Assembly: GCA_029964075.1 (NCBI GenBank)
Contig: CM057144.1
Coordinates: 10,749,281-10,813,280 of the forward strand
Direction of reading: 5' to 3'
DNA from: Patiria pectinifera
Taxonomy: Eukaryota > Echinodermata > Asteroidea > Valvatida > Asterinidae
DNA length: 64,000 bases
Both the position numbers and the translations under genes were made by a program. Every line of letters starts with the position of its first letter. Position 1 is the stretch's first letter. This document shows positions 22,501 to 56,412 of the stretch, in pieces. The notes under the pieces were generated by a model that saw only the letters and a program-made list of their open reading frames with translations, did not search any database and had not been told where the DNA came from.

Positions 22501-25500
22501 TTCTGTGCAAGAGGAGTCTTTCCCATCTGACACGGCTTATTTCAGCCATGAGACCCAGTTTGCATTGGCTGAGGTTCTTGATGCCATCCCCAGTACCCCG
22601 CCAGTAGTCATAAACCTGGTAGAGACTATGTTCATGAATGAAGATGCAGGTAAGTATATCCGTGGCGGAAGAATGCATCTGGAAAAATAGCCCGTATGCT
22701 AAAATTCGAATATAAAAGAAAATATGAAAGTTGTGGGGCATTGTTTGATTTTTTAAGAAGTTTAGTTAACGATTCAAACACATTTCCTAGAAATCCAAAT
22801 GTTAACAGTAGAATTTTTCTACTTTGTTTGCCCACGGATTCTACACACAAGGATAAACGATTGTTCTGAGCTTTAGTACATAATGCACCGAGCGGACTTG
22901 TCTTAATTGGTTGGACGCGTGACAACGGATACCAGTTGGTTTGTAATCGCGTACTTTCCAGGTGTACCACTGTGTCGTGTTTTTTTTTCGCATGACATCT
23001 AAAACGGAAATATGCATGAAACTGTTAGCAAAACTACTCCTTATATAAGATATAATTGTTCCAAAATTGCTTTAAAAAATAAATACTTCAGGATATTACA
23101 GACAGTATTGTGCAGTTTTTGTCGTCATAGATGAAGTATTTACCCGGGAAATAAACCAATTTCGAGGAAAACACCATTTACCCAAATTTTGTGTTTAATT
23201 AGGCTTTCATTAAGAAGTTTTTGAGAGATTTGGTCCCGAACCGTTGAAACAAAAGTACCATTACATAGCTCATTTAAAAGCCAAAGATACTGTGCTCGGC
23301 GTTATCATGGCTGTGTAGTTATCACTTATCAGAATCTTATCACTTATCAGAATAATAAAGACCAAAAACATAGACTCATTAATATTCACAAATATAACTA
23401 GCTGGCTTGATAGATTTCGACACCAGATCGGGCGCAGTGCCCTGCAAGTCTGAAAGCCGCCGCGCGCAGGGGTCTTTGTTCACAAGTTTTCATGGTATTT
23501 GCCACCTGTGCGGTCTGTTATAACTCGTCCAACCAGGAGTTTGGCCGAGTCGTTAATCCTTGTGTGTAGAATCCGTGGTTTGCCAAGTATCCATCGATAT
23601 ATATATCGTTACATTTTGGGAACAAGTTGCTAATATGTTAAATTGGTTGCTGAAGTTTGCTTTTATTTTGCTTTTATTATTTTCTGCACACTTGCCTTAT
23701 TATTGCAGGAACTTTGGTGTACACATTCCAAGCTAGCGATGCTGAAGATGACATCTTAGTCTTTGAGCTTGGTAGTAACAAGGACGTGCAAGGGACAACA
23801 ACGATCACGGAAACTGGTGAATTCAGCTATACACCTTGTGCTGATTGCCATGGTACTGTCACTCTGCAAATCACAGGTAATATTTTGAGGGTTTTTTTTT
23901 TAAATCACAGGTTATATTTTGGAGACTTTTTGCCAGGCACGTTTGACATCATGTGCTTCTGAGTATAGCATTTTCTTATTATTAAGCACTTCAAAGTAGC
24001 CCTACTATTTAGTTGTTTGTTACAAGTCCAATTGTTATGTCTGTAATCTGAACGGTTCGGTTCGGTTCGGTTCGGTTCGGTTCGGTTCGGTTCGGAAGTC
24101 TGATGTACAATTACAAATCGGTTAGATTTTGGAAGTGCTCAGGATCTGGGTTACCGGTTAAATTAACCCTAGTTTGTTCATTGTTCATTTATTTTCCACA
24201 GTGCCACACATTTTTAATGATCGTAATTAATACAAAAAAGATACTATATAAACAGATAGTGAGACTGTAGAGGAACCCACTAAGAAGCTAAGCTTGTAAT
24301 CGTAGGCCCCTTGTATACAAATTTAAAGTTGCTTTTAATACATAAGACACAGGACAGACAATAGACAAGGACAATACACAAACTTTACATGCCAGTTAAC
24401 AAGCAGGATAAGATTTGTTGCACAAGCGATTCTCGAAGTTAATGGGTTACACGGGATCATAATAATTATACAACAGGGTCGATTTATATTTCCGTTTGAA
24501 AGTAGACAAATTTTTTGATGTTTTTAGGTTCTCGGTAAAGGAGTTCCACAGCCTGGGTCCCTCATATCTAATAGTTTTTTGGGCTAAAGTTGTGCGAGTC
24601 AATGGGAGATGAAAGTTAGAGACTTGACGAGTATAATGGGAATGAACATCAAAATTCCGGGTAAAAATTGAAGTAATGGAAGATGGTGAGGTGCCTGAAG
24701 CAGATTGATACATTAGAGACCCAAGCTGGTGGAAATAAATATCTTTAACTTTCAAAATTTTGTGTTTGAAAAATAGGGGATCAGTATGGGCATTAAAATC
24801 AGTAAAATTAATTATTCGAAGAGCCCGTTTTGTAAAAGGAAAAGCCTATTGAGATTACCGAGGAACATGCTCCCAGGCTAGAATACCATTACTGAGGTAC
24901 GACAATATTAATGTATTATACAGGGAAACTAAAATTGTGGGAGGGATAAAATATTTGATCTTGTTGATGACACCTATGTTTCTCGCAATAATTTTACATA
25001 AATAATCTATATGATTAGTCCATGTTAATTTAGAATCTATATATAATCCAAGAAATTTAAGACAATCTGCTTTTTCCATGGCCATGTCATTAATTAATAT
25101 GTTGGAAGGGAGATTACTGGCAGTTTTACTAAATAACATATAGTTGGTTTTCTTAATGTTAAGTGACAGCTTATTAACTGCAAACCAATTACAGATAGAT
25201 TTTAACTCATAATTAACTGTGTTAGTGAGAGTAGTCAAATTGCTATTCGAGATAAATAAGTTGGAGTCATCAGCAAATAAAATAAATGAAAATACATCAG
25301 ATGATTTAACAAAGTCATTAATATAGATCAGAAAAAGCAATGGGCCCAACATTGACCCCTGTGGAACACCACATTTTAGGGCCTTACAAGTTGAATTTGA
25401 ACCGCCTATAGATACATACTGTTGTCTGTCTGAAAGGTAACTTCTGAACCACTCTAGGGCTACTCCTCGAACACCATAATAAGAAAGCTTATATAGCAAA

Positions 25501-28500
25501 ATGTCATGATCAATGGTATCAAAAGCTTTTGAAAGATCGAGGAATATCCCCAGAGTGTGTTCAGAGTTATCCATAGCAGTTGTTACTTTATCAACAAAAT
25601 CAAGTATTGCATGTGTAGTTGAATGATTACTTCTAAATCCGTATTGACAGTCGGTTAAAATATTACATTTATTAAGAAATTGAATAATACGAACATAAAC
25701 ACATTTTTCAAAAATCTTTGAAAAACAGGTCAAAATAGAAATGGGTCTATAATTGATAACTGAATGAAGATCACCGTTTTTAAAAATAGGAACAACCTTG
25801 GCAGTTTTAAGTGAGTTAGGAACAATGCCAGTTTTAAAGGAAGCGTTGATAATGTGAGTAATAGGTCTACTGATGACAGTTATAGTGTTTTTAATAATAG
25901 AAGAGTTAATCAGGTCGTGACCGGAGCTTGTTTTGTTCTGTAAGTTGTTGACGATATCAATCACTTCCTGTTCAACTACTGGTTGTAAAAACAAAGACCT
26001 TGGGTTCGGATCATTAAGAAAATCAACAAATGAACCATGTGAACTAGGAATATTTTTAGCCAGATTAGGACCTAAATTAACAAAATAATCATTAAAGCAA
26101 TTTGCAATATGAGTAAAATCATTGATTAACTTGCCTTCATGCATGATACTACTAATATGTTGAGAGGATAACTTATTATTAAGGACTGAATTTATGACCT
26201 TCCACGTGTTATGAATGTTGTTCTTTTCCTTCTCAAACTGACAAACATAATATTGCTTTTTAGAATTTCGTAAGAGACTAGTCAAAATATTTTTATATTT
26301 AATATATTTGAGTTTCCGCATGTTTGTCGGATTAGCAATGTAATGACGATATAACTTATTTTTCTTGTTAATTGATTTAAGAAGAAGTTTAGTAATCCAC
26401 GGGGCAGTTTGGTTAGAATTAGACTTTGATGTGGGCTTATGTAAATTAGGTGGAATATTTTTATCAACTTTATCATTGAAATTGTCAATAAATAAATTAA
26501 ATGCATAATCGGGATTATCACAGGTAGTAATGTTAGACCAGTCGGTTGCATGCAGATCTTCTTTAAGCCTCTGGATATTAAAATGAGTGAATTTACGGGA
26601 ACCAACATAGTTAAAATGATTAGAGGAGGCACTAGATTTATGGGAGGACATTATCATAAAAATTGGTAAATGATCGGAAATATCAGACAAAATTATGCCT
26701 GAGTTGGGAGATGGTAACACATTCGTCAAAAAATTATCAATTAGCGTAGCAGAAGAATCAGTTATTCTAGTGGGCTTATCAATTAATGGTAAAAAAGAAT
26801 AAGAAGTAATGAGATCAGTAAAAGCCTGTGTGCTGGGGGCTGTATGATTGAGTAAATTAATATTAAATTAATTGCGACTCTGCAAAGCGAGTGCCAATTA
26901 ACAAGCGTCTAGCAGCCAGTCCAGATGATGGTTTTCAGGCCAGGCCGTGACACTTGGCCATACGGCTGGCAATAATTAACGCACAAGTCTATTATGGGAA
27001 GTGGCTGAGCAGTGGCTTCCATAGGTGCGCGTGTTGTGTACATAACCGTAGCCAAGTGACGCGGACGCAGCCTGAACAGAATGAAAACAACGAGTTAACA
27101 GTTTTCTTGTCACACGAGGGCCACGTTATGCATGGCTCGTATTGTGTTTCATTTTTTTCTGGGTACACGTCAACACCGTGACATGGATACTATCGTGATT
27201 GCTTACGCAGCTGGCACAGGACTTGTGCTAGTGTTAAGTCTCGATTTGCCTCGTGCCATTAATAATGATTAACTCGTTATTCTGGACTCTTCTGTGACTG
27301 GAAATTCTTCTGTAACTGGGTTTTCGTCACATGGAAAGCACGTACTGCACACACATCCACTGTGCAAACGATACGTGTAGAGTTTTAATGGTGTCGACCG
27401 GGGTAAAGTTTTCCTAAAATCCAAAGGGATTTTCCATTCTAGTAAGAAAATACTCACCTCTGTTTACCTACATTTGCATATCAGCGCGCATGCGCACAAA
27501 CATTCGCTGAAAAGAATAGCGCCCAAGCCACACCCTCATTGTCCACTGCATGCCCCACACCCACAAAGGACCCTGTAACATAATAGCTCGTCCTAGTTTT
27601 TTTTTTTTTTTTTTAAAGGGAGGGATGGTAAACAGAGGTGAGTATTTTCTTACTAGAATGGAAAATCCCTTTGGATTTTAGGAATTCCATTACAGAAAAT
27701 ACCTCACCTCTGTTTACCTACATTTGCAGAGTAGCACCGAAAGTCTCAAGGGGGGGGAAAGGGACATGCAGTGGTTCTTGAAAGTCTAAACTAGGCCTAC
27801 ATGCAATTCTAAATGGCATGAAAGGTTGCTTAGACATACCCGGGTGCTGCCTATCTATTCTAAAGGAGCTTTGCGGGCTTTACGGGCTGCTGATTGTGCA
27901 GTTTCCTGGAAGACTTTCTGCTAATGCAACCCTCTGCTTGCACCACAGCTATAAGCAAGGTGTCACAGTGTAAGGGTTCTTCCAGCAGTCCGCTTTTCTG
28001 ATACCTGAAAAAGAGAGTCCTGTTCCCTGTATCTGAAAAGGAAGCTCCAAGCAGTTGAGTTCAGGAAGTTGTCACGCTGGGTGTTTCCTGAGCTTGAGAT
28101 TTTGATCCTCGATTTCAGGAGGGCACTCTTTGGTGGCACCGACAATCGAGTGATCATGGTCACAGAGGCTTGAAGATGATGCTAGATGACTGTACGAGCA
28201 TTTGCTTGATGATGAAGCCTCTTGAAGGCCATCAGTGCGAGCATTGTAGTTCTGCAGAGCTCGCATGGGGCACCACCATATCCTTTGCTACTAATGGAGA
28301 GGATGTCAACTTGGCCGGAAATATCAGGTCTGAAAATAAGTTGAATTATTCCGTGTGTTGAACTTCACCCATGGAATAAAGTAAATGCAGTCATGTGCCA
28401 ATGGCTGTGACCTGGTAACTTAGTGAAATTCCCTTCTTAAGGTAAGCTACTGCAGCAACCAGTAAGAATATGGGTTTTGCAACCTGACAGAAAGGAGAGT

Positions 28501-31500: not shown

Positions 31501-34500
31501 TGCGATATGAAGGTCGAGTAGATTCGACTGGGGAATGGGGTGGAAACTGAAGGATCTTACCCACTTCCGTCATCGTAAGATTAGCCTGTTGGACATTGGA
31601 GAGACATGAGAGACTATCTTCATCCACTGTCTGGCCCGAGGAAAAGAAGACCTTGAAGGAGATCTAGAATGTGAGTGTCGACTTCGATGACCAGAATCCG
31701 ACCGTGAGTAATCACGATCAGGACGAGAAGAACGATGTCGGCGCCGAAGTCGATCGTCGGAGTCCGAACGGGACCGCGCACGAGACCGGGAACGGCGCCG
31801 TGAATTGCGGCGTTCTCTCCCCGCCCGGCTGGTGTGTTCACCGAAGCGTTGCGGAGAACGAAGTCTTTGTCCTGTGAAAGGTACACCATGATCTCGCGGA
31901 TAATGTGAAGAATTACCCCGATAAGATGTGTAATGGTGTGAAAATCCCATCGGAAAGGTCTGGGGATAAACCCGCGGGTCGTAGGCTGGAACACTGAGTG
32001 GATACGGAGTGCGAGTATTGTGGTCGAAGTGACGAGGATCGTTCGGGAAAAAGACCACGTGTGAGGCTCCGAATGATGAAGAAAATCTCGCCGAGATTCG
32101 CTTGTAAAACTAGGTTGAGAATACGAACCCGTAGTATGGCTGACTGAAGATGATGGTGATGGTGGTGGTGGTGCCCCAAGCCTCTGTGACCCGGCGGGGC
32201 TGGTCGGATTACCGAAGAACCTTTGGGTTTCGAACGCCAAGCCCCGCCGTCCCGCCTGCACGCGCGAGTCGACCTGTTGTTCCGAAGCGTGCATGTGCTC
32301 TTGCAGACTGCCGGAAGAATGCGGGATTTGTCGGGGAGAGGCCGTAATTCTCATTGGAGAATTCTTTGACCATGTTAACCCCTGGAGAAATGGCCGTAAT
32401 TCTCATTGGAGAATTCTTTGACCATGTTGACCCCCGGAGAAATTCCAACTGCCGAACCCGGGAGATTGGACCCAGTCGTAGCAGAAGAATTATCACGCTT
32501 GGATTGAGTAGAGGGTGACTTTCCAGTAGAACGGCTTGAGACAGTTTTCTTTTGGTTTTGGCGGAGTCCGCCATTTTATAATCACAGCGAGAACAGCTAA
32601 AAATTGTACGTCTTCACACTACGCGTCGCTGAAAAAACTAGGACGAGCTATTATGTTACAGGGTCCTTTGTGGGTGTGGGGCATGCAGTGGACAATGAGG
32701 GTGTGGCTTGGGCGCTATTCTTTTCAGCGAATGTTTGTGCGCATGCGCGCTGATATGCAAATGTAGGTAAACAGAGGTGAGGTATTTTCTGTAATGGAAT
32801 TGCGTATTAAAATTAGGCATACATATCTTTTTTTGATGCAAGTTAAGAAACATGGAGCTACACAGAGACTTGGGTTGACTAATCTTCGATATATTTCGAT
32901 TAATAATAACTGGGATCAAATTGAGTCCAAGTTTCGTGTCATGTTATCAGACGCGAAAATGAATTGTTCGTCAAATGGTCCCGTGTCTCTCCAACTTGTA
33001 ACCATTATTTCGTAACCTGTTTGTGGCATTTTCCTTTTCAATTGACAGTCACGACCAAGTGTGTAGTTGTGCATTATATGAACAGACTTTTATATCATGT
33101 ACAGTCAAGTCTCGTTATAACAAACTCGTTTGGACGTAGCCAATGATTGTTTGTTATATCAGAATTTTGTATTAAGAGGAACATCAGTCCCATTCATTGT
33201 GCATGTAAATGCAGTCGGGACCAAGGCTTTATGTTTGTTATAACCAGAATTTTGTATAAACAGAGTTTGTACTAACGAGAGTCGACTGTACATTGTACAT
33301 GTACTTATAGGCTACAGCCCCCCCCCCCCCCCAAAAAAAAATTAATTCCGTAAAAAGAAATTGCATTAGCAAAAAGAAGGATTGTGATGTACATGCGAAC
33401 GGTCTCCCCCTAAAGAAATAGTCGTGACAAGGGTGCATTTGAATAATATAGTGTGAATGATTTTAGGATTTTATTGGCGCTCCCCATTGAAAATATGGCA
33501 TGACCCCCCCCCCCCCCTATAGATTTTCGGAGGCCTAAGTGTCTGGAGAAAATAACCAGTCTACATTTCAGCACGCCTCCCTGAAAAAATTCTGGATCCA
33601 CCCTGCTAGCCCCCCAAAAATATTGGTTCTAGAACCGCGCCTGGCTACAGCAGGTCTACAGTTGGGCCGCAGCTTCTGAGATCATTTCGAGCTTGTTCCC
33701 CTTAGATGTTCGCCTCATTTAGTTCGCCTCTGGTGACAGAAGAGTGTACCTGAAGCTGGCTGCCCGACCTGGACACACAGACCATGGAGTTATGCACAAA
33801 CCAAGGAAGAAGGAACAAGAGAACGGTCCAAAATTACAAGGAGCGTGTTGGCGAGGCGGTCTGGTTCCTGTCATATCTCGGCAATCAAGCTGTCAATTAT
33901 TTCAGTTATATTCACTTAAACCATACTAGAGCACGAAGACCAAACCAATGAATTATAACTTGTCAGTTTTCAGCTCCCATGGCGCCTTTCTCATCATGGT
34001 CATTAACTAGTCTTGGCCAAAGTTCCCTTAAAGGTAGAGTACATCGATCATTTGTCATTTGTGGATTTGTAGCTGCGGCTGAGCAGCTCAACAAATGGTT
34101 GTGTCTGTTAGTTGGTTAGTTAGTAACAGGCGTCACCAACATCCTTGCATGGCTATCAATCACCTCGTGCCCAGCAGGCCCTTAATGGGTCCCCACTGAC
34201 CGCCTACCATTTATGCAGTCCTGGAAAATTGGGTCACTAGGGTCAAAAACCTGATGTTTGATGGCACAATCACGGTACACATGCATGAACACAAATGCAT
34301 CGGCCCGCAGTTTTCGAGATCATTTCGAGCGTGTTTTCGTTTGTAGAAGTAACAAAAGTGCTCAAAATAGACTTCATCCAAAATTAACGAAAAAACAAAA
34401 CATGTATTCTTTCCGGGTGTGTAGTGTGTACTAACATCACGCTTCTTACAATAGCATTGTGTTTATGGCAGTGTAATCAAAGCGCCGGAAGTTGTTGATC

Positions 34501-37500
34501 TGCCGCACTGAATTTATAGTCTAAATGTGAAAATAAAAACTTGACAAAGTTATACATTTTTCGGGTACATTACTATGTTCCAAGTGTGGCCTTTATTTAC
34601 GGAGGTAAATGTAGTCCAGTAGATTGGCCACATTTTATGGGGCTAAATTGTCGATTAGTGTTGGCCGCCATCTTGTTTGGATGGCGCTGTAGACTTCGCG
34701 CATGCGTAGTATGGCTCTGTACACTTCACGCATGCGTAGTACAGCTAGCTTCGCGTAAACAAAATGTGAAACCTCTTTCAACCCAATTTTTTTTCTATGA
34801 TTCCTTTTAGTGTTTCTCTTTGTTCTGCCACTGATAAACCCAACCCAAATATGCCTCTAAACCTGTTTTCCAGAAATGGGGAAACACTGTGTGGACTAGC
34901 TCAAGTCCACACAACGTCTCCTCTACCTGGTTTATGTGGCCCTCTTTTGTTCGGAAGTCCACACAGTGAATGTAATGCCTACCCACCCACACACCCACAC
35001 ACACACACCCCTGTTTGTTTTACATACGCTATGTGGACATTCCTTTGTTTTCGTGTAGTTAAGAAAACTCGGTACAAACAATAACTTTACTTTAACTGTG
35101 AAAACTCTTTCAACCCAATTTTTTTTCTATGATTCCCTTTAGTGTTTCTCTTCATTTTACCACAAATAAACCTAACCCCAAAATGCCTCTAAACCTGTTT
35201 TCCAGAGAGGGCGAAACGTTACGTGGACACGGCTTAGTCCACATAACGTCAACACAACCTGCATTATGTGGACATCTTTTGTTCACAAGTCCACAGTGAA
35301 TGTAATGCTTACCCACACACACACACACCAGATTTAGAATAAAATCGCCTCCCGGTCCTCTTACTGAAAATGTGTCAGCCCTACACCGTGGTTAACGGGT
35401 TTAACAAATAATGGGAACCCTCCACCCCACACACCCACACCCACTTAAAACACCGGTAATCGTGGACATTCCTTTATTTGTACTTAATTTTTAGCAACAG
35501 CCCTCATTATTTCAAGTTAGCAACAGCTCTCAAATTTTGGTCTCCCAAAAAGTGGGTCCAAAAAAATTACGGCGTGGGGTTCGGGGCCCGCTTAAGGACC
35601 CGGAGGTGGTTATATTTTTATTATTATTATTATTTTGATTCTAGATGCTCTGTGGTGCGATCTGAGGCATTTTCTGACCACTTTGACCAATTTGAACGCC
35701 CTTTTCGTAACCCTTTTGTCCTAGGTCCACGATTGCCGGTGTGGAAGGTAATTCTGTCCCCCGGTAAAACTGTCCAGGGGGGGGGACAGAATTACCTAGG
35801 TAAAAGTGTCCTCCCCGGCCCGTTAATTTTGGCCCCCCCCCCCCAGGTAATTTTGTCCCCCAGGTTTTTTGTCCCTCTCTTTTGAAATCCGGAAGGCCAG
35901 TTCTCTTTATTGTTTTTATGAATTCACTCTACAAGGTATACATTTTGGACGCTTATTCTGCCCTTCATGAATATACAAATTTAATTTTGTCTATTAGATG
36001 ATAATGTGAACACAATGTTTCTATTTGGAGTACGGTGAAATCGCGATTCTACCGCGATTGGTCAATACGGCGGCGATGCATGGCGATGGCCCTCGCCTCA
36101 TTGATACAACGCCTATGCTTGGATTGGTCTGTGTTCCCATCATAGCGCGTAACGAAATTTCCTATTGGATGAATTTCCATTGTAGAGGGAGACGCATGTA
36201 CACATGTGATAATCACTGCCACATATCTTGCAACATGTACTGGCGCTCGCGACACGCTGCTGCTCTCAGTATATACTACATGGGGACACATATACCAGGG
36301 GGACACTTTCACCGTTGGGCAGGGGGACATTTTTACCTGGAGGGGGACAAATCTACCTAGGTAAAAGCAAGGGCGGATCCGGGGGGGGGGGCAATGGGGG
36401 CCATGCCCCCCCCCCCCAAAAAAAAAAAAATTTTTTTTTTTTTTTTTTTTATTTGACATCGCAATAAAGGCATGCAATGAGTACACCACCATCTTTTTAT
36501 CAAAAAAAAAATTGATTAAAGTGGTCAGAAATTGCCTCAGATCGCACCACAGAGCATCTAGAATCCAAAAAAATTTCGGGGCCCTTTAGCGGGCCCCGAA
36601 CCCCACGCCGTAATTTTAAAAACATTGTGTTCTGCATCCGCCCTTGCGTAAAAGGGTCCCCTCGGACACATTTACCGGGTCACGAGCCGGTTAATGTGTC
36701 CGGGGGGACACATTCACCAGGGGGGACAGAATTACCTGTCACACCGGTGTTTACATATTCGCAGACACACTTGCCTACGCCGTCCAGAAACAGATATTTT
36801 TTTTCACAAGACAGCGCGCAAAATCATGTGCCCCCCAAAAAAACAAAAAAACCCAAACAAACAAACAAACCTTCAATGAACAAGAACAAGATCTAAAGTA
36901 GAAACACAATTCGGTTCCACCCACAAATTCTGGAAAAGTACCTCACTAAACAAAACTCCATGAACAGATCTGAAACACTATAGTGAACACTAGACAAGAA
37001 ACATACATGGGGTTATATAAGCAGTGTTTATTTTTGAAGTTCTCAAGTTTGTGTAAGTCTTAAACTACTCATAGCGTTCGGAAAAAATAGTTTAATAGGT
37101 AGTTTAGCGTCCTCTATGGCAATCCAGAATAAATACCTTTTGAAAATGGCCTCCGGTTTTCGGTTTAATATTTGAGCTGCGGCTGTGCAGAACGTTCGTT
37201 TGTTACTAAACAGTACTGTAACTAAGTAACGAACTAACTAATTAACGGAGAGACATGGTGATTTTGTTGGGCGGTTGTCCGCAGCTAAAAAAAATGCATG
37301 TGTAATATTTTTCAACTCAATGAATTTTCCTAAAATTCCTTTAATATTTAGGTCTGACACAGAGAATCCTACGAGTTTTCATCAATAAAATCCTCCTAAC
37401 TGAACTAATGTTAACAAATAAATGACAAGCATAACGGTCACCCAGTTGCACATTTTGCACGGTTTGGGTGTTTTGATTAGGTTTATTATTTTAGTCTTTG

Positions 37501-40500
37501 ATTTTGATCAACAAGATTTCGGGGATGTTTGCATTTTGAGAGATTATCCGGCCACCAACCAATACTTGTCTACAATCTACTTGTTGATTAAAGATGTCAT
37601 CACGTCAAGTTGTATGGGTCATCTTTCACGAAAATACAATGAATTTTTAGTTCATTTTAGGAACCCCAGTTTAAAGGTATTTTCATAATGTTAAATTTTG
37701 TTACTGAAATGGAATTCGAGATGCTATCTGAATATCTGCCATGAACGAGTATAGTTATGGCAAAGGAGATCTCAGACAAAATACTTCCATCAAAGTTCGG
37801 TTTGACGCGGGGATTTTTTCTTTCTGAAATGAAGGCGCAGATGACAGGTCAGACGCTAGGGAGAGGCAGAGCGGTGATACTTGCCTCCTTCTTATCTCCC
37901 GCCAGCGAAGGTTATTACCATTGCCATTCACAACAGCCACTAGGATCTTCAGTGCAGGGATCCTCGAAAGGGCCACAGCCTTCGTCATTCCGTACTAGAG
38001 AAAAAAATAAAAACTAATCATTCCTTAAACAAAATACAATTTGGCACATCGATCCCAATGACAAATACTCTCACCCATTAGGTCTACATATGTCTCTTAT
38101 TTCAACCCAAATGAACTTTTTTCCCCAGTTTAGAAACAAACATAATTGGACAGTCCTGGCATTATTCCTGGGACATCCACTCCCCATCCCCCGCGACGAA
38201 CGTCTTTTGGGCTAAAATTTCTTTTGTTGTTCTGCTTCTTGTGTTTTGGGCTGTGTGTTGCTATGGAGAGTACCCCTTGGCCCCCACCCCACTTTGCACA
38301 GCCTATAATTAGGAGATGGCTTGGCCAGATGATTAACCCCTCCCTTTATTCTCTATCAGCCACAGACAAAATGAGGTCAACATCCAACTTTTAATAACAT
38401 TGAATCGCAAGGGCAATGTGAACTTTTAAAACTTTTATACATGAGATAAAAATGAATTGTCGTTCAACAGAATCAGGTTGACCTTTCAACCCAACTACAA
38501 ACAATATAGTCAGAGTATTACACATACCGTGACGTTCTCCACTGACTGCATGTTGGTCAGAATCGCCATCACTCCGTCCTACGAAAAAAAAACACAAAAC
38601 GGCACAAAAAATGATTGTTTGTTTATGAATTATGATCTATCAGCTTCTTGCCACTTACCTCCATTTGAATTATTATTATTTGAACTTTCCTATACTGTCC
38701 TATCGCTTTAAATGAGTGCAGAGAACTTAAACTGCTGTTTTTGGAATCTCCAATGCAAAACAGAATAAATTACGTTTTGATGTGTAAGGTATTCCTAATG
38801 TAACAAATAATAATAATATCGGAGTCTTATATAGCGCACGTATCTACCAACTATTAGGTACTCAAGGCGCTGGAGATATGTCTATTATTAAAGAAAGGTA
38901 AATAAAGTTTATGAGAAATATGAGACCCATTATGTAGCACCTTATAAGGGTTTACAAGGTGATGCGGCGCATATTGCAGCCACTGCCAGAAACACCGGGG
39001 CAAACCCCTTCTCTTAGCGACAAGTGTTACTGGGTTCTTTAACGTGCATTACACAACACACGGGACCTACGACTTTACGTCCCATCCGAAGGACGAAGCA
39101 ATAATGGTAAAGTGCCTTGCTTAAAAGCACAAGGACCGTGTTCCCACGGTCAGGATTCGAACCCATGTACCACGGCACACGAGTCGAACACCCTAACCAT
39201 TGGACCACAGCACCCCATCATAAGACCTATATGTCGCGTGTGTCGTTATATTTACCTTGCAGACTAGCTGCTTCACTAGTCATCACAGTACTAGCAATCA
39301 AGCCGATTATCAGAAGAGTGACCAGTAACATCTTCATTGTGAGTAGTGGGAAATTCAATGCCGTTCAAAGGAAATGTCTGTGGATCTGTCGCCAAAAGAG
39401 AAAAAGAACAATAGGAACGGGTCAAATTCGAATACCGATCTTATCCTTCACCAGCAACAAAACAATTGCTCACTATCTTCGGGGTGCATAACAACTTAAC
39501 CTGTGGCAATTTCAGCTCAGTGAGAAACAGAAAACACATGTACCATACTTAGGGGGCCATTCAGAATTTTCAATGTTTTAAAATTTCGCCTTTTTTTCCA
39601 AATTATTTTGACCCACCCACCCACCCCTAATTTCGATTAATAAAAAACTGAACATGTACATGTACATGCACTTGCACTTGCATGTACATATACTTGAACA
39701 TGAGCATGTACCCATGAGATCAGAACGCTTGCGCGTAGTTCAGGCAACTCAAAAGATCTATCTTTCTTTTCTTTTCTTTTTTCTTTTTCCATGGAAAGTG
39801 AATTTCGATTTTCAATTATTTAGCTTGACCCCTCCACCCACAATTTTGACACATTGAACATTCTGAATGGCCCCTTATAGGGTTTCATAACTGGATCCCG
39901 TTGCTAAAACTTGCTAAAGCCCGGTTCAACATACTCCACGCGAATGCGAACGCGAAGCGAATTCGGCGTCATGAAACATTCGCTCATGCGAAATTCGCCC
40001 GAGTTGAAAATGTTCAACTTACGAATTCGCAGCGCGAATACTTGCCATTACGTCACAAATCCGCGTTCGCTTTCGCGCCGAGTATGAATCGGGCTTAACA
40101 CAGTAAAAACAAAGTGCGCTCAAGTCACGGAAGTATACATTGCAAAGGTTTTTCTATCGTTTCTAAACATGGCTTGAGCACACACAAAAAGGTCCGAGTG
40201 AAACGCTACCTTGTCACCTATAAATTATAAGCAGTCAAGAAAAAAGAACAACTATTATGGCATGTACACGTACATGAAAATAACGTTCGAATACTTACGT
40301 ATCTTCAGTGTACTTCTCTGTTCTTTGTATCAAGCGACGCTGCAGTATGCTGTCTGGTTGATGTCAGAGACAATAATTCTCTCAGTGACAGCAGGAAGTT
40401 TATATATTTCCAAACCGCTCTTGTAATACAAACTCAACAGACCACCAAATTGCATCATCGTCTACCAAACCTGACTGTAGACGCTCATAATTATCTACTG

Positions 40501-43500
40501 ATGTACAGACATTAGTGTCGCCCATCAAATCCAACCATGCATGTCCGTGACAGATCCATGTCAATATTGTCGTTGTGAAATTTGAATTCGTTGGCCATTC
40601 TCTGGAAAAGTCATTGCGTTTTTAATCGCGTGTTCTATGTTTCTTTTCATTATTGAGACCATTATCCACTCCAAAACCTAGTCGAAGTGGTCAGAAAGGT
40701 GTTAAGATCACAATTAGTGCCTACTTCATAATTCAGCGTGGTTTATGTAGTAACATATACTGAAATGAAGTTGAGTACAAGCCGATGATCGGATGAGCGG
40801 AGGGGGAGGGTGAAAATGCGAGGCGTATAAATAAAGTTTACGGACGTTGATGTAATTCATAGAAATTGCTTTCCTTTTGCAGCCTTTGGTCAAATAATAG
40901 AATACTTGATTTTCTTTAACTAATCAGATATCTCTAGAAAATAAGCAGAATCTGCGGGTGAGGTGTTATAAAACGAACGCAAACTGCTTTGAGAAGAGGT
41001 ACATACTTGCAAACATCAAAAAATAAGACTACCAAGTTGTTTCGAAATACCTTACGAAGATGTTGGTAAATGACAGTCTAAAGCATCCTGTATAATTATG
41101 GCACCTGGTGTGAAGTCATTTTCAAGAAAAATTGTACTTTTGTATACATTTCCAACGTTGGTCGGCCGACCACCGTTGGAAAAACCTAACTATTTTTCAA
41201 CCACTGCTCCAAATTTACCATTTTTGTTCCAGTCCAAATTTTGTTTGCTATTGGTTCCATGTTCATGAACGGGTGCACGCCAGCTAGACTGGTTCCCTTA
41301 CCTTACAATTTTCCGGCATTTTTGATCCATTTCATCTTCAGTGGAGTCAGGGAACCAGACTACCTGAACATTTTTGTTTTTCTTGGTTTTTCCAGCATTT
41401 TCGAACGCAAAACTTCAAACATGTCAGTGTAACAATATTTGATCTATTATACTAACCCCCATGTGAACTGCACATAATGTCTAGACTCAGCAATAGAGTC
41501 AATATCAGTAGACGTCAATATGGAGTTTGACGGAGCCTCCAACGTCCTTGGAGTTTATGCGATATAATTTGTCTCATCTAAAAATAAATGTTTTATGGCT
41601 TTTTTGTCTCTCCATAGACACAATACAATTCTGCTCTGAGCTAACGAAAGAATGGTTTGTGACTATTGTACACTGTAGGAATCATATATTTTCTGCATTA
41701 AAATAGAGGAAAATTGGTAAGGTACGATTGCAATTTAGAAAATGGACTAGAATATTATGGTACTGAATGCTTCGAGTTCAATTGAGAAAATTGGTTTGTG
41801 TAGTCACATATACTGAAATGAAGTTGAGTACAAGCCGATGATCGGATGAGTGGAGGGGAAGGGTGAAAATGCGAGGCGTATAAATAAAGTTTACGGACGT
41901 TGATGTAATTCATAGAAATTGCTTTCCTTTTGCTGCCTTTGGTCAAATAATATAATACTTGATTTGATTTTCTTTAACTAATCAGATATCTCTAGAAAAT
42001 AAGCAGAATCTGCGGGTGAGGTGTTATAAAAACGAACGCAAACTGCTTTGACCAGAGGTACATTAAAGGGAATATACTTGCAAACATCGAAAAATAAAAC
42101 TACCAAGTTGTTTCGAAATACCTTACGAAGATGTTGGTAAATGCAGTCTAAAGCATCCTGTATAATTATGGCACCTGGTGTGAAGTCATTTACAAAATAA
42201 ATGGTACTTTTGTATACATTTCAAACGTTGGTCGGCCGACCACCGTTGGAAAAACCTAACTATTTTTCAACCACTACTCCAAATTTACCATTTTTGTTCC
42301 AGTCCAAATGTTGTTTGCTATTGGTTCCATGTTCATGAACGGGTGCACGCCAGCTAGACTGGTTCCCTTACCTTACAATTTTCCGGCATTTTTGATCCAT
42401 TTCACCTTCAGTGGAGTCAGGGAACCAGACTACCTGAACATTTTTGTTTTTCTTGGTTTTTCCAGCATTTTTGAACGCAAATTTCAAACATGTCAGTGTA
42501 ACAATATTTGATCTATCTGAGAATTACAGCAAAAGCCAATAATGTACATTCCCTTTAAAACTGTGATCCAGGGAGTGTTCAATTTTTCCTCAGAACTCGA
42601 AGCATTCAGTACCATAATATTCTAGTCCGTTTTCCGAGTAGAGTTGCAATCGTACCTTACCAGATTTCCTCTTGTCTTATGCAGAAAAATTGTATTTCGT
42701 ACAGTGTATAGCTACGAACCATTCTTTCGTTAGCTCAGAGCAGAATTTTATTATGCCCATGCAGAGACAAAAAAGCCATAAAACATTTATTTTTAGATGA
42801 GAAAAATTATATCGCATAAACTCCAAGGACGTTAGAGGCTCCGTCAAACTCCATATTGGCGTTTACCGATATTGACTCTATTTTTCAGTCTAGCCATAAT
42901 GTGCAGTATTTTTTACAGGCCTACATTTCCCAGGGCAGCAGCAAAGTTAAAATAGAGTAAATAGCGACAGCACACCAATATAGCTCAGCGTGATTTTTTC
43001 GCGTGACGCACGCCGGGCCTGTACGCGCAGTGTCCGGTCGGTCATCCACGTGACCGTCCGTGCACGGTGACATCACTTGTGCCGGTGCCGGCAGCCTAGC
43101 CCGTGATTCAGCCCGTGATTCAGCCCGTGATTCAGCCCGCGGTTCAGCTCGCGATTCAGTCCGCGACTCAGCCGGCAATTTGGTGGATGGTAGCCCGAAA
43201 CACACAGTTATCTTTTTCTCACTCGTGCGGAAAGGAGCCCTGCTGATTTCCTTCGACCTCGTGCGAGTTTTTTTTTCTATTTTGTTCCTCAAAAAATCAC
43301 TTAGGCTAGATAGTAAAACTTGTGACGAATTTAAAAGGTTCACTCAAGAAAAAAGTCACAAATCCTGGATACATTGAGAGAAAATGACTGGAATGTTTGA
43401 ACATTGGCCATTTTTTCATGAATTGGTATTGAATGGTATTGGGGAAACAATTCTTCAATGCAAATTAATATTCATGGCCTTAAAGCAGGAAGAACAATTC

Positions 43501-46500
43501 GTTTAAAGTATTTTCAGCAAGGAGCTCTCATAATTCACCCTTGCATTAGAAATAGGCCTCCTGCCTCCGTGTTGTTGATGAATTGCTCTAGAAAACTAGT
43601 CTGAGTATCACCCGTCTTCCACGGAGCCAAGTCTCCTGTCTAACGCCTGATATGTCTAGACATGCAGATATATGCAAGCCGCGCGCCAGCCAATCGGAGT
43701 CGACTTTACTAAAATCGTGACTTCATTTCATTCCCAAATCAGGACTAAAACTGTGATTGGTCAATTCGAATGCAGTGTTTTTTAATACAACAGCCGCCGC
43801 GCGCGTGTCGCGTAACATAATACAGAGCGCGTGACTACGGCCTTTGTTGCTGTGTCTAGCGTTTTTTTCTATCCATGTCTTGACGCAACAACGGGCAAAT
43901 GACCCATGACCCAACATAGAAAGCGCCCGCTGATTGGTCAAAATCTAGAGGTCGAGATGCGGCTGTCCATGTTGCATAATTAATCAGCGAATCTGTTCAA
44001 AAATTATAGACCATGGCTTCTATTACATAGACTACTAGAAAACAAACCAGTCAACCAAATTAAAAGAAGAAGAGAACAAGTGTGTAGTCGCTATTTACTC
44101 TATTTAACTTGGCTTCCGCCCTGGAAAATGTAGCCCTGTAAACTGCACATAATGTCTAGACTCAACAATAGAGTCAATATCGGTAGACGTCAATATGGAG
44201 TTTGACGGAGCCTCTAACGTCCTTGGAGTTTATGCGATATAATTTTTCTCATCTAAAAATAAATGTTTTATGGGTTTTTTTGGTCTCTCCATAGACACAA
44301 TAAAATTCTGCTCTGAGCTAACGAAAGAATGGTTTGTGACTATTGTACACTGTAGGAATAATATTTTCTGCATTAAGATAGAGGAAAATTGGTAAGGTAC
44401 GATTGCAATTTAGAAAATGGACTAGAATATTATGGTACTGAATGCTGCGAGTTCGATTGAGAAAATAAAATCGAACACATAACTCCATGGATCACAGTTT
44501 TACTGTACTGGCCCCGTGTAAAAGCAGTCTATGTTGATAACGCCTCACCAACACTTTTTTTAGCTTATTTTCTAGAGATATGTCTGCTTAATTTAACAAA
44601 ATCCAATTCAAGTATTATATTATTGGACCAAAGGCAATACAAGGAAAATGTCTTCTTTGAAAATAAGAATTGCATGCATCAACGTTCATAAATTTCATTT
44701 ATATTCCACGCATTTTCACCCTTCCCTCTCGCATCATATACTGAACTTCCGTTCAGTATTTTGTACACTTTAATTAATACAAACCACGCTAAAAGTAGGC
44801 ACTTTTTATTTTGACACCTTTCCGAATACGTCGGGGCATGGTCGGGGATTGTCACTTAAATTTTGCCCGAGGGGTGGGGATTTTGTAACTTCAAAAGTGA
44901 CAATCCCAACGTCTTGGGTGGGGCAGCCAGGAGGGGTGGAGGGGTGGGGGAAACAATTGATAGGCGCATAAGTTTCATGAAATTACAATTGAATGCAGGC
45001 GAAGTTTGCACTATCAAGTTAAGCCAATACAGGTTTCCACGACGGTGGGCGTCGGGGAGATGATAACCGGTACAGTTCAAATGATCTCGCGCATTTTCGC
45101 TTGTGCGTCATCACGTGATTTCAATGATTTGTCAACGGTCGAATGCCGTAATGGCGACAAGTTTATTTTCACAACCTTGTATTACGCGTGCAAGACGTAA
45201 ACACAGACAGTCCGGTATGTCACGAACTTGGTCGGGAATGTTTGGCCCGTGGTCGAGGGACGGTGACTCCATCAGTAAAGTGTGATGTGATGACTTGACG
45301 TCGAGTATTACCTCCGCCAAGCTTCATCAGTTCTATTTGTTTGTTTGTTTGTTTGTTTGTTTGTTTGCTGGGGTGTTGGGGTGTTTGTTTGTTTGCTAGT
45401 TGCAGTATATTTTTGATAAATGCAAATTCATGACGAAAATATCTTTGACGCTGTTTCCTTCTTCCTCTTCAGTGAAAGAGATAAAGACTTTAACTGAGCG
45501 AGAACCTCTGTCTACTAACGCCAGTTTTACAATTGAAGTGAGACCGATCAACGATATCCCTGTATTGTACAGTGCTCTGAATGGCCAGGTTGTCGGCAAC
45601 GGCCGCACCGATTTGGTAAATTATGTTTCATTCTCTCGCACGAAATATCGATACCTCATATTTAGAAAAATTGTTTGATTCCTAGTGCTTTCCTTCTCCG
45701 AAATTGAAGGTATTTTCATTCCTGAAAGAAAGCCTCACTTAAAATCAATTATATGCAAACAATTCACAATCTTGTCATCTTACGTCTTTTTCAATATGCA
45801 TTTAAAATAAAAGAGCAATTCACCAACAATAATTAGCTTTTATATTGTCACCTTGTCAACCACAAATATAGGCCCTGGTGATTTTTGCAAGTGTCATAAG
45901 CCTTCACTGCGCCAAACCCTACTTTGTTGTAACAGTTTGTGACAGTTGAATTTACTTTTTAAATATTCTCCATATGTTTTCATGAAAAGCTAACAGTTGA
46001 GCAGAACACACTATCCAATGTGGCCTACAAGGACCTGAGGGCTGAGCTTGGAGCGTATGATGCTGACAGCGATGATAAACTGACCATTATAACCCAGCCC
46101 CCGACCTATGGCACTCTGACACTGACAGAGGAAGTAAAGACTGTGCCGTCTACGCAGAATTGCAGTGAGCCCTCTGGAGACAGGGAGGGGTCAGTCATCC
46201 CATGTGGGCTAAAGTTGCCTCATGAAAAGGTAACCTGCAGTGGTAATTTGTTAATAGTGTCTTGCTTACTAAGTGTTCTGTCATGCTGATTGAAGCTCGA
46301 TTATTAAGTGTTCCTCTGCTTTAAAATTTAAGCGTGTGATTAATCACGCTTAATTCATAGAAATATATATTTTCTGGTGCAGTTGAATCAACTTCGGTTT
46401 GATCCCAATCCTGGCACCCTGTTCCAGCACCTTAAAATGTTTGGATCAATTTTTAGAATCATAATTAAGTGTAAACTTTCTAATAATGGTACACCACCGA

Positions 46501-53464: not shown

Positions 53465-56412
53465 ATGGTTGTTACTTGTTGTTGTTGCAACAAGCGGCAC
53501 ATGAAAGACTCGGGAATAAAATGTTTCCGTTTTCCCGATTTTGAGGCCTTTCCAGTGCAACGGCAGGCTTGGATTTGTGCCGTACGGCAACACAGCGACT
53601 GGACAGATGTCTTTGATGAGCAGTGGCAACCATCACTACATGATAGGATCTGCAGTCGACACTTTGTTTCTGGTCAGTAAACAGGTAAAGGTCTATCACT
53701 AGGCCTACATGATCTATGGGCATTGTTTGAGGTTTTTATAAATCATGAAAGCCTCAACCGGTTAAGATTATTTGTGTTTTTATTTCAACAAACCATGGGA
53801 GGAATAAATTAAAAACATAAGAATCATGAATGATTAGGCCTAGGCCAGGGGACCTAGGCCTAGCCTAGGCCTCCAGGCCTATGATAAAAAAGGGTCTATT
53901 CTTAGGCAATTGACGAGGCAAACCATCATGACCATGCTAACCAGCATGACAAGTGAAGTGCTAGCCTTGACATGGCCCGCACTGGAGTAGGATAGACTCC
54001 AGGACTCTGCATCATCATGCATGCAATAAAATATTTTGGGTATTTATTATTATTATTGATAAATGGATAGTATTATGCAAAGACATAGGGGAAAAAATGT
54101 AGCTGAACTCATATTGCAATTTCATCATAACCTTGATTTTATTTTAATTATTCTTTATCTTTTCTGATTTGGGATTTTGCAGGAAATTACTCCAGAGATG
54201 ACAATCATGTGGACTTCGTTCCAACTGTATTTAGCGGAACTACAGCTGACCAACTCAGGAAAGGGCAGGAGCAACTTAAACGTCACGAGAGATGGCAGAA
54301 GCGCTCAGATCGAAAGAGGAAGCAAACCACCACTTCACCATCCATGCCACAGCTGGAACCAGACCCAGTGACTAAGTACGTTTGCATTTTTCTTATGACA
54401 TTTGATTTACATACACTATCAGTCTCCTTTTTGAAAAGATCACTTCACTTAATGAGATGCGAGAGAAGTATCAGGGTTCTCGCGGCATGAAAACAAAAGA
54501 TAAGAAATAAAGTCTTATATATGGTCAAATAAAAAAAAAACATGTTTAGTGCTTGCCTTTTTGCAAAAAAAGGAAGCGGGAGGGAGGCCCTTTGATTGAT
54601 TTAATTCTCCAAAATGGCCACCTGACTAGGCTATGTTGCAAAATGGCTGCCAGTTTTTTGTTTTTTTTATTACCGCCATTGGACTCAGGAAATGACATAC
54701 CAGCTATGGGCTAGGCCAAAATGATGTCTGTTTAAAATTTATCATTTTTTGGTTGCTAAAAAAATGAAATAGGAGGCGGCCTCCAAAGAGCAAGTGGGCG
54801 GGAACGCTAAACGTGGTTTTTTTAATTATTTGACCTAGTTCTTTTCTCAAATTCCAGCCCTAAACAGTAAATTAATAGTCATGGAATTTTTTTGAGGACC
54901 AATATATTTTGAATTTTAAACTTTTTGTAAGTTCATTTTTGTTTAACTTCAGGCCCAATAAAAAAAAAACCCAGGTTATCATCCCTGCCCACATGCCTTT
55001 TTGAAGCAACCGCCTTTAATTTAAATTGTTTATACACCTCAATTTTTTTTATAATGCATAAAAATAAAAATTAATTGGTTACTTTGATTAAATACATACA
55101 ACATTGTTTAATGTGAATAAGTTTACTCTACTTAGGCCAAAACATAATAGTTCCGCATCTGGTTACCCTACCTACCCTGAATGGAAAAAAAACCCAGCAC
55201 ATCACGGCTTTCCCTACATGTATACCTACCTAACTCATGTAATTTTCAAATGCCATGTATTAATCAGAAGCATTTCTTTGGCCTAATGCAAAGCCCAATG
55301 CTAATTGCCTTTTCCCAAAATCTTTTTGTTTTTTAAATTTTTTTTCCAGCAGCTCGCCTTTGCTGCCACCATCCACAAAGAGGAGGAAGGAAAATTGTGT
55401 GCACGAAACAACTACCCGACAAGCTTCAAGTCAGACCATGGATCCCCAGGAATGTGACCCACACAAAATGTACCGTGATGAAATAGCAAATCTAAAATCT
55501 GATATTCGCTCCCTACACAGTAAAGTGGACAAACTAAAGTGGTCCAATGATAGAATTAAATCTGACAAAAAATGTAAATTCTATACTGGTCTTCCTTCTT
55601 ATTTAGTTTTTCTGTGGTTATTTCATCAGCTTGTTCAGGGTGTGTCTTCTTCGTTTTGCAGATGTCTTAATTTAAAGGATCAGTTATTTTTAGTTCTTAT
55701 GAAGCTTAGGCTGGATTTACTTTTTGATGACATAGCGGACCGCTTTCAAATATCACGATCCAGCGCTTCCAAGATATTTAATTTATGGATTAAGCACATG
55801 GCTGGCAAGATGAAGCCATTGATACATTGGCCAGATAGAAACACTCTTAGACGCACTCTTCCCAAAGCTTTTAAGAAGTCAAAGAAGTATCGCAAAACAA
55901 CAGTCATCATTGACTGCTTTGAAATATTTATGCAACGTCCTTCAGATCTCAAACTTAGAGCACACACATATAGTCACTACAAACATCACAATACTATCAA
56001 AGTTTTAATAGGCATTTCACCTACTGGTGCAGTTATGTTTTTGTCCAGATGTTTTGGAGGTAGAGTTTCCGATAAAACATTGACCCAGAAGAGTGGGCTT
56101 TATGAGAAACTGTTGCCTGGTGACCTCATCTTAGCTGACAGGGGGTTCACTATTGGTGAGGAACTTGCTGTACATGGTGCCACTCTGGCCATTCCTGCAT
56201 TCACTAAAGGGAAGAAACAACTATCTGGACAGGAAGTTGCAGGTTCACGCAGTCTATCAAATGTCCGCATCCATGTAGAAAGAGCAATAGGGCGTATTAA
56301 GGAATTTCACATTTTGCAGCATGTTGTACCCATAACGTTTGTTAGAACTATAGATGACATAATTGCAGTGTGTGCTGCATTGACCAATCTTCTTCCAGCT
56401 CTAGTCAAGTAG
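53465..56412 (+). CDS. THAP-domain DDE transposase (ISL2EU type), three exons, 487 aa
   Basis: The exons are 53465-53672, 54183-54375 and 55350-56412. Phases 1 and 2 match at the joins and the total is 1464 nt. I chose the ATG at 53465 because the THAP zinc finger starts there ('MVVTCCCCNKRH', then 'FRFPD', a Trp, 'RICSRHFVSG'; C2CH ligands and the family's FP and HF residues). A basic linker follows, then a coiled segment ('RDEIANLKSDIRSLHSKVDKL'-like), a helix-turn-helix ('DIADRFQISRSSASKIF') and the DDE_4-type catalytic core with D in 'VIIDCFEIF', D in 'LILADRGF' and E in 'HVERAIGR'. No stop or shift is seen, so it may be active. It should bind the element ends and cut and join DNA in the nucleus. 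Confidence 0.9.

Follow-up and report, generated by a model that had tools for sequence, protein, structure and literature searches.

Introduction

Exon-limited hyper-divergence is best known from the venom genes of cone snails. In the excerpted text of PMC3862624, conotoxin genes carry the signal, pro and mature regions on separate exons, with conserved introns and a hyper-variable mature exon which collects point changes as well as trinucleotide indels; the first intron is phase 1, as is the second intron in the T superfamily. Among the cysteine frameworks, the available part of PMC4278219 gives XVI as C-C-CC and III as CC-C-C-CC.

Within the echinoderms, the KASH (KARTESH) and CHUPA peptides of Asterias rubens are presented in the accessible sections of PMC11891777 as secreted four-Cys peptides that go up after injury. 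There, the KASH precursor consists of a signal peptide, an acidic stretch, a convertase site and a mature four-Cys peptide of 28-30 residues with variable loops, while KASH2 bears an amidation signal and folds into a disulfide-directed beta-hairpin with I-III and II-IV pairing. According to the same sections, usable homologues of KASH2 outside Asterias rubens were not retrieved, while the introduction credits other echinoderms with some.

The present work concerns a window of 64,000 nt (C16:10749281-10813280), the whole stretch of DNA that was analysed, within a 613.5-Mb genome. A previous sequence-only reading had proposed that it holds a gene for a secreted four-cysteine peptide, antisense in the intron of a receptor gene. 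Judged from sequence, our best reading is that of a real gene, to all appearance not described before, whose product would be a secreted four-Cys peptide processed at RxxR; it lies antisense in a large intron of a gene with a cadherin-like domain. Beyond that proposal, the gene proves to be one of a family of seven loci, and in two of the three close pairs the mature exon is hyper-divergent when set against introns of the gene itself.

Gene Structure and Genomic Context

The coding parts on the minus strand (39337-39256, 38578-38528 and 37994-37915) join into one frame encoding a 70-aa precursor, and both introns within the CDS are phase 1 with GT-AG borders (Table 1). All the junctions of the three phase-consistent exons in the sequence-only reading were found. 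The signal peptide, RxxR site and C-x6-C-x6-CC pattern that it had named are all present in the joined precursor, which runs from a signal peptide through a spacer and RHVR (the RxxR site) to a 24-residue mature peptide and the stop, with the signal-peptide and convertase cleavage points placed by eye. The predicted TATA box and 5'UTR intron hold as well: in a promoter/exon 1 alignment that took in five loci (the window, L007, L008, L009 and L010; L037 and L039 left out), the TATAAA core and the exon 1 donor of the window are kept in the four others, the donor reading GTAAGT or GTGAGT.

The acceptor of exon 4 reads ctctag/TACGG, and the CDS closes with TAA, followed by a short untranslated tail to a GC donor 30 nt after the stop. 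Exon 4 of the window probably extends to 37885, where a 3'UTR intron with that donor would begin. A donor-like site is found after the stop at all seven loci (GCAAGT in six, GTAAGC in L009), and the acceptor-like ttcatttcag is present in the window, L007, L008 and L010 and not clear in L009. This probable 3'UTR intron (37884-37824 in the window) keeps its GC donor in six loci and has GT in the seventh. An extension of exon 4 through an at-stop donor (ATG/GTAATA), which would add two Cys and complete an inhibitor cystine knot, was rejected, since L007 and L008 are without that donor and end at their own stops, and since the donor common to the seven loci sits after the stop (GGAG/GCAAGT; GAG/GTAAGC in L009). 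An Rfam search gave nothing informative.

As a chance control, exon pairs of this type were counted. The window holds one pair in which a signal-type exon goes with a four-Cys exon containing CC (two start variants), and 4 of 20 random sequences with the dinucleotide make-up of the window also hold such a pair (mean 0.2 per 64 kb), so that the gene model of the window alone is only suggestive. It is the seven paralogous loci with intact structure that settle the model as real.

The intronic antisense placement was confirmed, as the flanking host exons join in frame into one Big_9/cadherin-like domain (Big_9, 29.1 bits with a cut-off of 23.6; Cadherin_5, 26.7 bits with a cut-off of 26.5). Host exon sequence ends at 23876 and restarts at 45473, which gives an intron of about 21.6 kb. 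The description of this intron as that of a receptor stands in part: a large intron and a host with a cadherin-like domain are there, whereas receptor stays a putative label, since the cadherin-like domain alone passes its cut-off. Pfam scanning of ten open frames of the window led to one cadherin-like domain, one EGF below cut-off, two transposon-/phage-type matches and nothing in the remaining six; the two FN3-looking open frames in the scan gave no Pfam match. Matches longer than 400 bp between the duplicated segment that holds the peptide gene and C3 have 82-96% identity, and none of these falls in 34767-36925.

Several other frames were recorded in the window. The same host intron carries a 670-codon frame on the minus strand (24855-26867), of LINE-type reverse transcriptase by eye, and Arg/Ser-rich frames, also on the minus strand (31570-32402), lie near a 52-bp tandem repeat (32340-32443); the frame at 31570-32109 matched no Pfam family. 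A HARBI-type transposase is located at 55264-56412 on the plus strand (DDE_Tnp_4, 166 bits) and a YqaJ-domain frame at 58973-60256 on the minus strand (58 bits).

Table 1. Peptide gene, host exons and duplicated segment in the window, and the six related loci elsewhere in the genome (a slash marks a splice junction).
Feature	Position	Strand	Remarks
TATA box TATATAAA	40399-40406	-	TATAAA core aligned in L007, L008, L009, L010
Non-coding exon 1 (5'UTR)	40299-40375	-	predicted start, about 30 nt downstream of TATA; GTAAGT donor at 40298
Exon 2 (remaining 5'UTR, signal peptide)	39256-39385	-	ATG 39337-39335; donor CAAG/gtaaat
Exon 3 (propeptide, first R of RxxR)	38528-38578	-	cgtag/GACGG...CACG/gtatgt; phase 1 both ends; aligned in five loci
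Exon 4 (mature peptide preceded by second R of RxxR; stop)	37885-37994	-	mature peptide 37989-37918; stop 37917-37915
Exon 5 (3'UTR), probable	37482-37823	-	acceptor ttcatttcag; AATAAA 37487-37482; end provisional
Host exon upstream of intron	23709-23876	+	cadherin-like/Big_9, first part
Host exon downstream of intron	45473-45615	+	joins in phase 1; 45615 only possible end (GATTTG/gtaaat)
Duplicated segment holding peptide gene	32800-45304		discontinuous homology to C3 (L013-L032), two copies 88 kb apart
L007	C3:10108396		signal-exon DNA search
L008	C3:10196320		signal-exon DNA search
L009	C4:3571211		signal-exon DNA search
L010	C16:4698519		signal-exon DNA search
L037	C4:10093274	minus	signal-exon DNA search
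L039	C4:10101490	plus	signal-exon DNA search

Paralogous Loci

With the signal exon and 5'UTR as DNA query, seven loci were retrieved from the 613.5-Mb genome (E<=0.01). The promoter and exon 1 (DNA query, E<=0.01) matched seven places, each upstream of one signal-exon locus and none besides, and the L037 precursor used as protein query of the genome (E<=10) gave 13 matches, all of them within the seven known loci. The window mature peptide as sole query recovered three loci only, against seven with the signal-exon or promoter probes. These searches are lower bounds, and more distant family members may therefore exist.

The seven loci are spread over five separate genome regions, and at every one of them exons 2, 3 and 4 are in identical phases, splice sites and open frames are intact, and exon 4 is flanked by AG and a GC or GT donor. 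They encode six distinct precursors of 68-76 aa with no internal stop (L007 and L008 share their product). RxxR directly precedes the mature part in six of the seven loci, and L010 has RR in its place. The mature parts are 21-27 residues long and contain four Cys, except for the six of L009; they read GDVDCDFYEAPCTTSPSGCCAKWRFV in L007 and L008, NMVCPYRFEPCRHKPTGCCLKREFYP in L037, TRCPYRVGHCRQKTTVCCLKQPFNIR in L039, NNPCPAGQYLTFCRSRPAGCCVALPRY in L010 (after RR) and AAFRCCPEMYCSICPKGTCCS in L009. Cysteine conservation, put forward as a check by the sequence-only reading, was followed here in the paralogues and is upheld: six loci including the window, or five distinct peptides, have C-x6-8-C-x6-CC (x6 in the first loop, x8 in L010), and the seventh, L009, has CC-C-C-CC (CC-x4-C-x2-C-x4-CC). 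The net charge of the mature peptides ranges across the family from -7 to +6, the window peptide being strongly acidic (-7). When the six distinct precursors are compared in all 15 pairings, amino-acid identity averages 0.82 in the signal, 0.61 in the pro part and no more than 0.40 in the mature part.

A protein database (E<=10) yielded no relative when queried with the precursor of the window and with a four-member alignment (L037 and L039 left out); matches there need shared 5-residue words, and a transposase control showed that the database holds animal proteins. The PDB search (E<=10) returned only an immunoglobulin chain (E 0.32) and NKG2-D (E 7.4), and no description of the present peptide family turned up in searches of the open-licence literature. 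L037 and L039 are arranged head to head about 8 kb apart (C4:10092735-10102177), with introns more than 98% identical and mature coding DNA 17% different.

Exon-Limited Divergence

Aligning the window with L008 gave differences of 8/224 in the promoter, 2/75 in exon 1 (mismatches, span 40375-40301), 20/470 in intron 1 (with 453 gap columns), 4/50 in exon 3 (38578-38529) and 33/510 in intron 3, introns 1 and 3 together thus making 53/980. The 5'UTR of exon 2 (0/48) and the signal (0/83, 39337-39255) contain no difference, that is 0/131 over 39385-39255. In exon 4 the picture changes, with 2/10 in its first ten bases and 23/70 over 37984-37915, which covers the stop and the mature part minus its first five bases; 10/40 differ in the 40 nt after the stop and 34/467 further 3'. 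The mature part departs from intron 3 (Fisher p 3.6e-9) and from the 3' flank (p 2.6e-8), and the signal plus 5'UTR is slower than introns 1 and 3 (p 0.0017). Intron 2 (210/570 mismatches, with some insert-adjacent bins at 15-23%) was excluded from this baseline, because the two loci carry different inserted elements in it. The window element is an inserted repeat at about 39236-38850, and L007 and L008 have a related one in opposite orientation (about 80% over 160 nt); the two apparently represent separate insertions.

Between L037 and L039, the mature part plus stop differs at 12/70 against 5/410 in introns 2 and 3 (p 1.3e-7), and the 40 nt after the stop at 6/40 against 22/559 in the far 3' part; the upstream part of this alignment contains 256 gap columns. 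Here both exon 3 (2/51) and the signal exon (4/82, with 3 gap columns besides) are above the introns, and consequently the constancy of the signal rests on the window/L008 comparison plus the amino-acid identities. Binned at 15 nt, both pairs show an excess that opens with the acceptor of exon 4 and is over after about 95-105 nt. Outer bins are high too, from +345 to +374 in one pair and from +375 in the other, and are read as insert or alignment-end effects.

The cysteines are kept while exon 4 diverges many times more than the introns of the same gene in these two of the three close pairs. The third, L007 and L008, is 98.2% identical over 7.4 kb, with 18/1087 differences in introns 2 and 3 and 1/126 in exon 4; as its intron divergence is like that of L037/L039, the excess is not present in every pair. 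L007 and L008 may be alleles placed twice by the assembler, or exon 4 may change in bursts.

The exon 4 excess includes silent and untranslated sites. Values of pN/pS are 0.282/0.095 for window/L008 and 0.253/0.270 for L037/L039, and the latter, together with the fast stretch after the stop, indicates that amino-acid selection alone is insufficient. Up to the CC, the sole gap in the two pairs is one of 3 nt; after it, gaps of 16 and 8 nt are required to align their nucleotides, and these shift the frame and the stop. Gene conversion from a family member was considered as the source of the divergence, and no donor was found: in exon 4, the two members of either pair match each other better than any other locus of the family, and an exon 4 context search met six of the seven known loci (L009 missed) and no others. 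For three of these six, the match is confined to the intron and breaks off ahead of the exon.

Discussion

The explanation that we favor, and hold to be probable by a modest measure, is a family of small secreted peptides with at least seven loci, probably in an echinoderm, in which the delivery parts are kept and the payload is varied; such a division suggests an effector directed at an outside partner that itself changes. The precursors would enter the secretory pathway, a furin-type convertase would cut after RxxR, two or three disulfides would hold the loops of the mature peptides, and these would act as effectors on that partner. Our first choice within this explanation, to which we give roughly half of its weight, would be an effector of defence or of the response to injury, at work in body fluid, mucus or epidermis, with a toxin against predators or prey ranked below it. 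In its favor, four-Cys secreted peptides that respond to injury are on record for a sea star (PMC11891777). A point against is the strong acidity of the window mature peptide, in which it departs from most antimicrobial peptides. A different and rather doubtful proposal is that of an independent conotoxin-like system in echinoderms, in which promoter, signal and propeptide are kept and the payload exon would diversify as DNA, with silent and untranslated bases changing too, via exon-bounded bursts that would permit a switch from C-C-CC to CC-C-C-CC.

It could also be argued that the gene is real and the speed of exon 4 is mainly due to a DNA process, namely local hypermutation or recombinational tract replacement, with selection filtering the Cys and the frame. 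In its favor, change is fast at silent sites and past the stop as well, and the excess is bounded at the acceptor and some 95-105 nt on in two independent pairs. Nevertheless, we regard it as unlikely: L007 and L008 differ at a single exon 4 site despite similar intron divergence, and, being of about the same age as L037/L039, count against continuous hypermutation; the exon 4 context search supplied no donor exon; and portions of the present untranslated tail may formerly have been coding. More improbable still are pseudogene copies or chance frames spread by segmental duplication, to which we give the least credit of all. The window copy does lie inside a duplicated segment, its model by itself is near chance expectation and the tail gaps after the CC are out of frame, but splice sites and open frame are kept at all seven loci in five separate regions, only a 3-nt gap precedes the CC in two pairs, and in window/L008, though not in L037/L039, the signal exon and 5'UTR are slower than the introns.

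Of the antimicrobial, hormonal or venom-like functions offered by the sequence-only reading, a conserved hormone fits the hyper-divergence of the mature exon poorly. A family of hormones or neuropeptides whose core is closed by disulfides would account for the signal peptide, spacer, RxxR and single short Cys peptide; yet the mature loops are the least conserved part, a C-terminal G-K/R amidation signal is absent in all six models and the protein database held no relative for the four precursors searched, so that we rate this explanation as quite improbable. Gamete-recognition or seminal peptides evolving by sexual conflict would agree with the fast mature part, and echinoderms have fast-evolving gamete proteins, such as bindin; we know, however, of no small soluble Cys peptide acting as an echinoderm gamete ligand, and a role of this kind seems to us improbable to a similar degree.

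Independently of function, a case in a probable echinoderm, with same-gene introns as internal clock, constitutes a second system for asking whether selection, mutation or recombination is behind the speed. A further suggestion from this case is that annotation and homology search can overlook secreted peptides which are small and Cys-rich, because mainly the signal exon and the promoter are conserved.

Comparison With Known Peptide Systems

Invertebrate defensins and the mussel CRP/myticin-type peptides are secreted, Cys-rich and copy-variable, as is the present family, which has fewer Cys. It differs from that group also in a net charge spanning negative to positive values, and a Pfam scan of all six precursors, defensins and other antimicrobial peptides included, gave no family at cut-off.

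As far as the excerpted conotoxin accounts go, the resemblance to conotoxins includes the three-exon split, the phase-1 introns, the conservation of the introns, a mature exon that is hyper-divergent around its conserved Cys (seen in two of the three close pairs) and the frameworks themselves, XVI in the family and III in L009. On the other hand, the conotoxin family of Pfam (PF02950) gives only a weak match to the window precursor (E 0.00078), with 20.8 bits for the window, 14.4 for L008 and none in four of the six precursors (cut-off 25.1). No conotoxin-superfamily signal was matched in the protein database (E<=10; window precursor and four-member alignment), the coverage of which was confirmed for animal proteins only. 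Conotoxins come from conoidean snails, whereas the source genome here has a match to bindin, an echinoderm protein (125.6 bits, cut-off 22; model positions 100-165 of 238), so that the source is probably an echinoderm and not a cone snail; a COX1 search gave no hit. Only seven loci were found, and the non-coding exon 1 and the probable 3'UTR intron with GC donor are further differences.

With KASH and CHUPA, the family shares a probable echinoderm origin, variable loops in the mature part and the succession of signal, spacer, convertase site and four-Cys mature peptide, the KASH precursors being compared through their description in the sections available. Set against the acidic stretch of KASH, the family spacer mixes D/E with R and has no clear acidic character, and the amidation signal of KASH2 is absent in the six family models. 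KASH2 (8V2M, 8V2U) was not among the PDB matches (E<=10), in a search where its presence in the copy used is unconfirmed and the L039 peptide was not a query; with a mature part that changes so fast, a sequence relation to KASH2 could be hidden. The family thus resembles conotoxin genes yet falls outside them by Pfam score, by the missing database relative (four of six members queried) and, indirectly, by host, and KASH and CHUPA are the nearest in biology to the present family.
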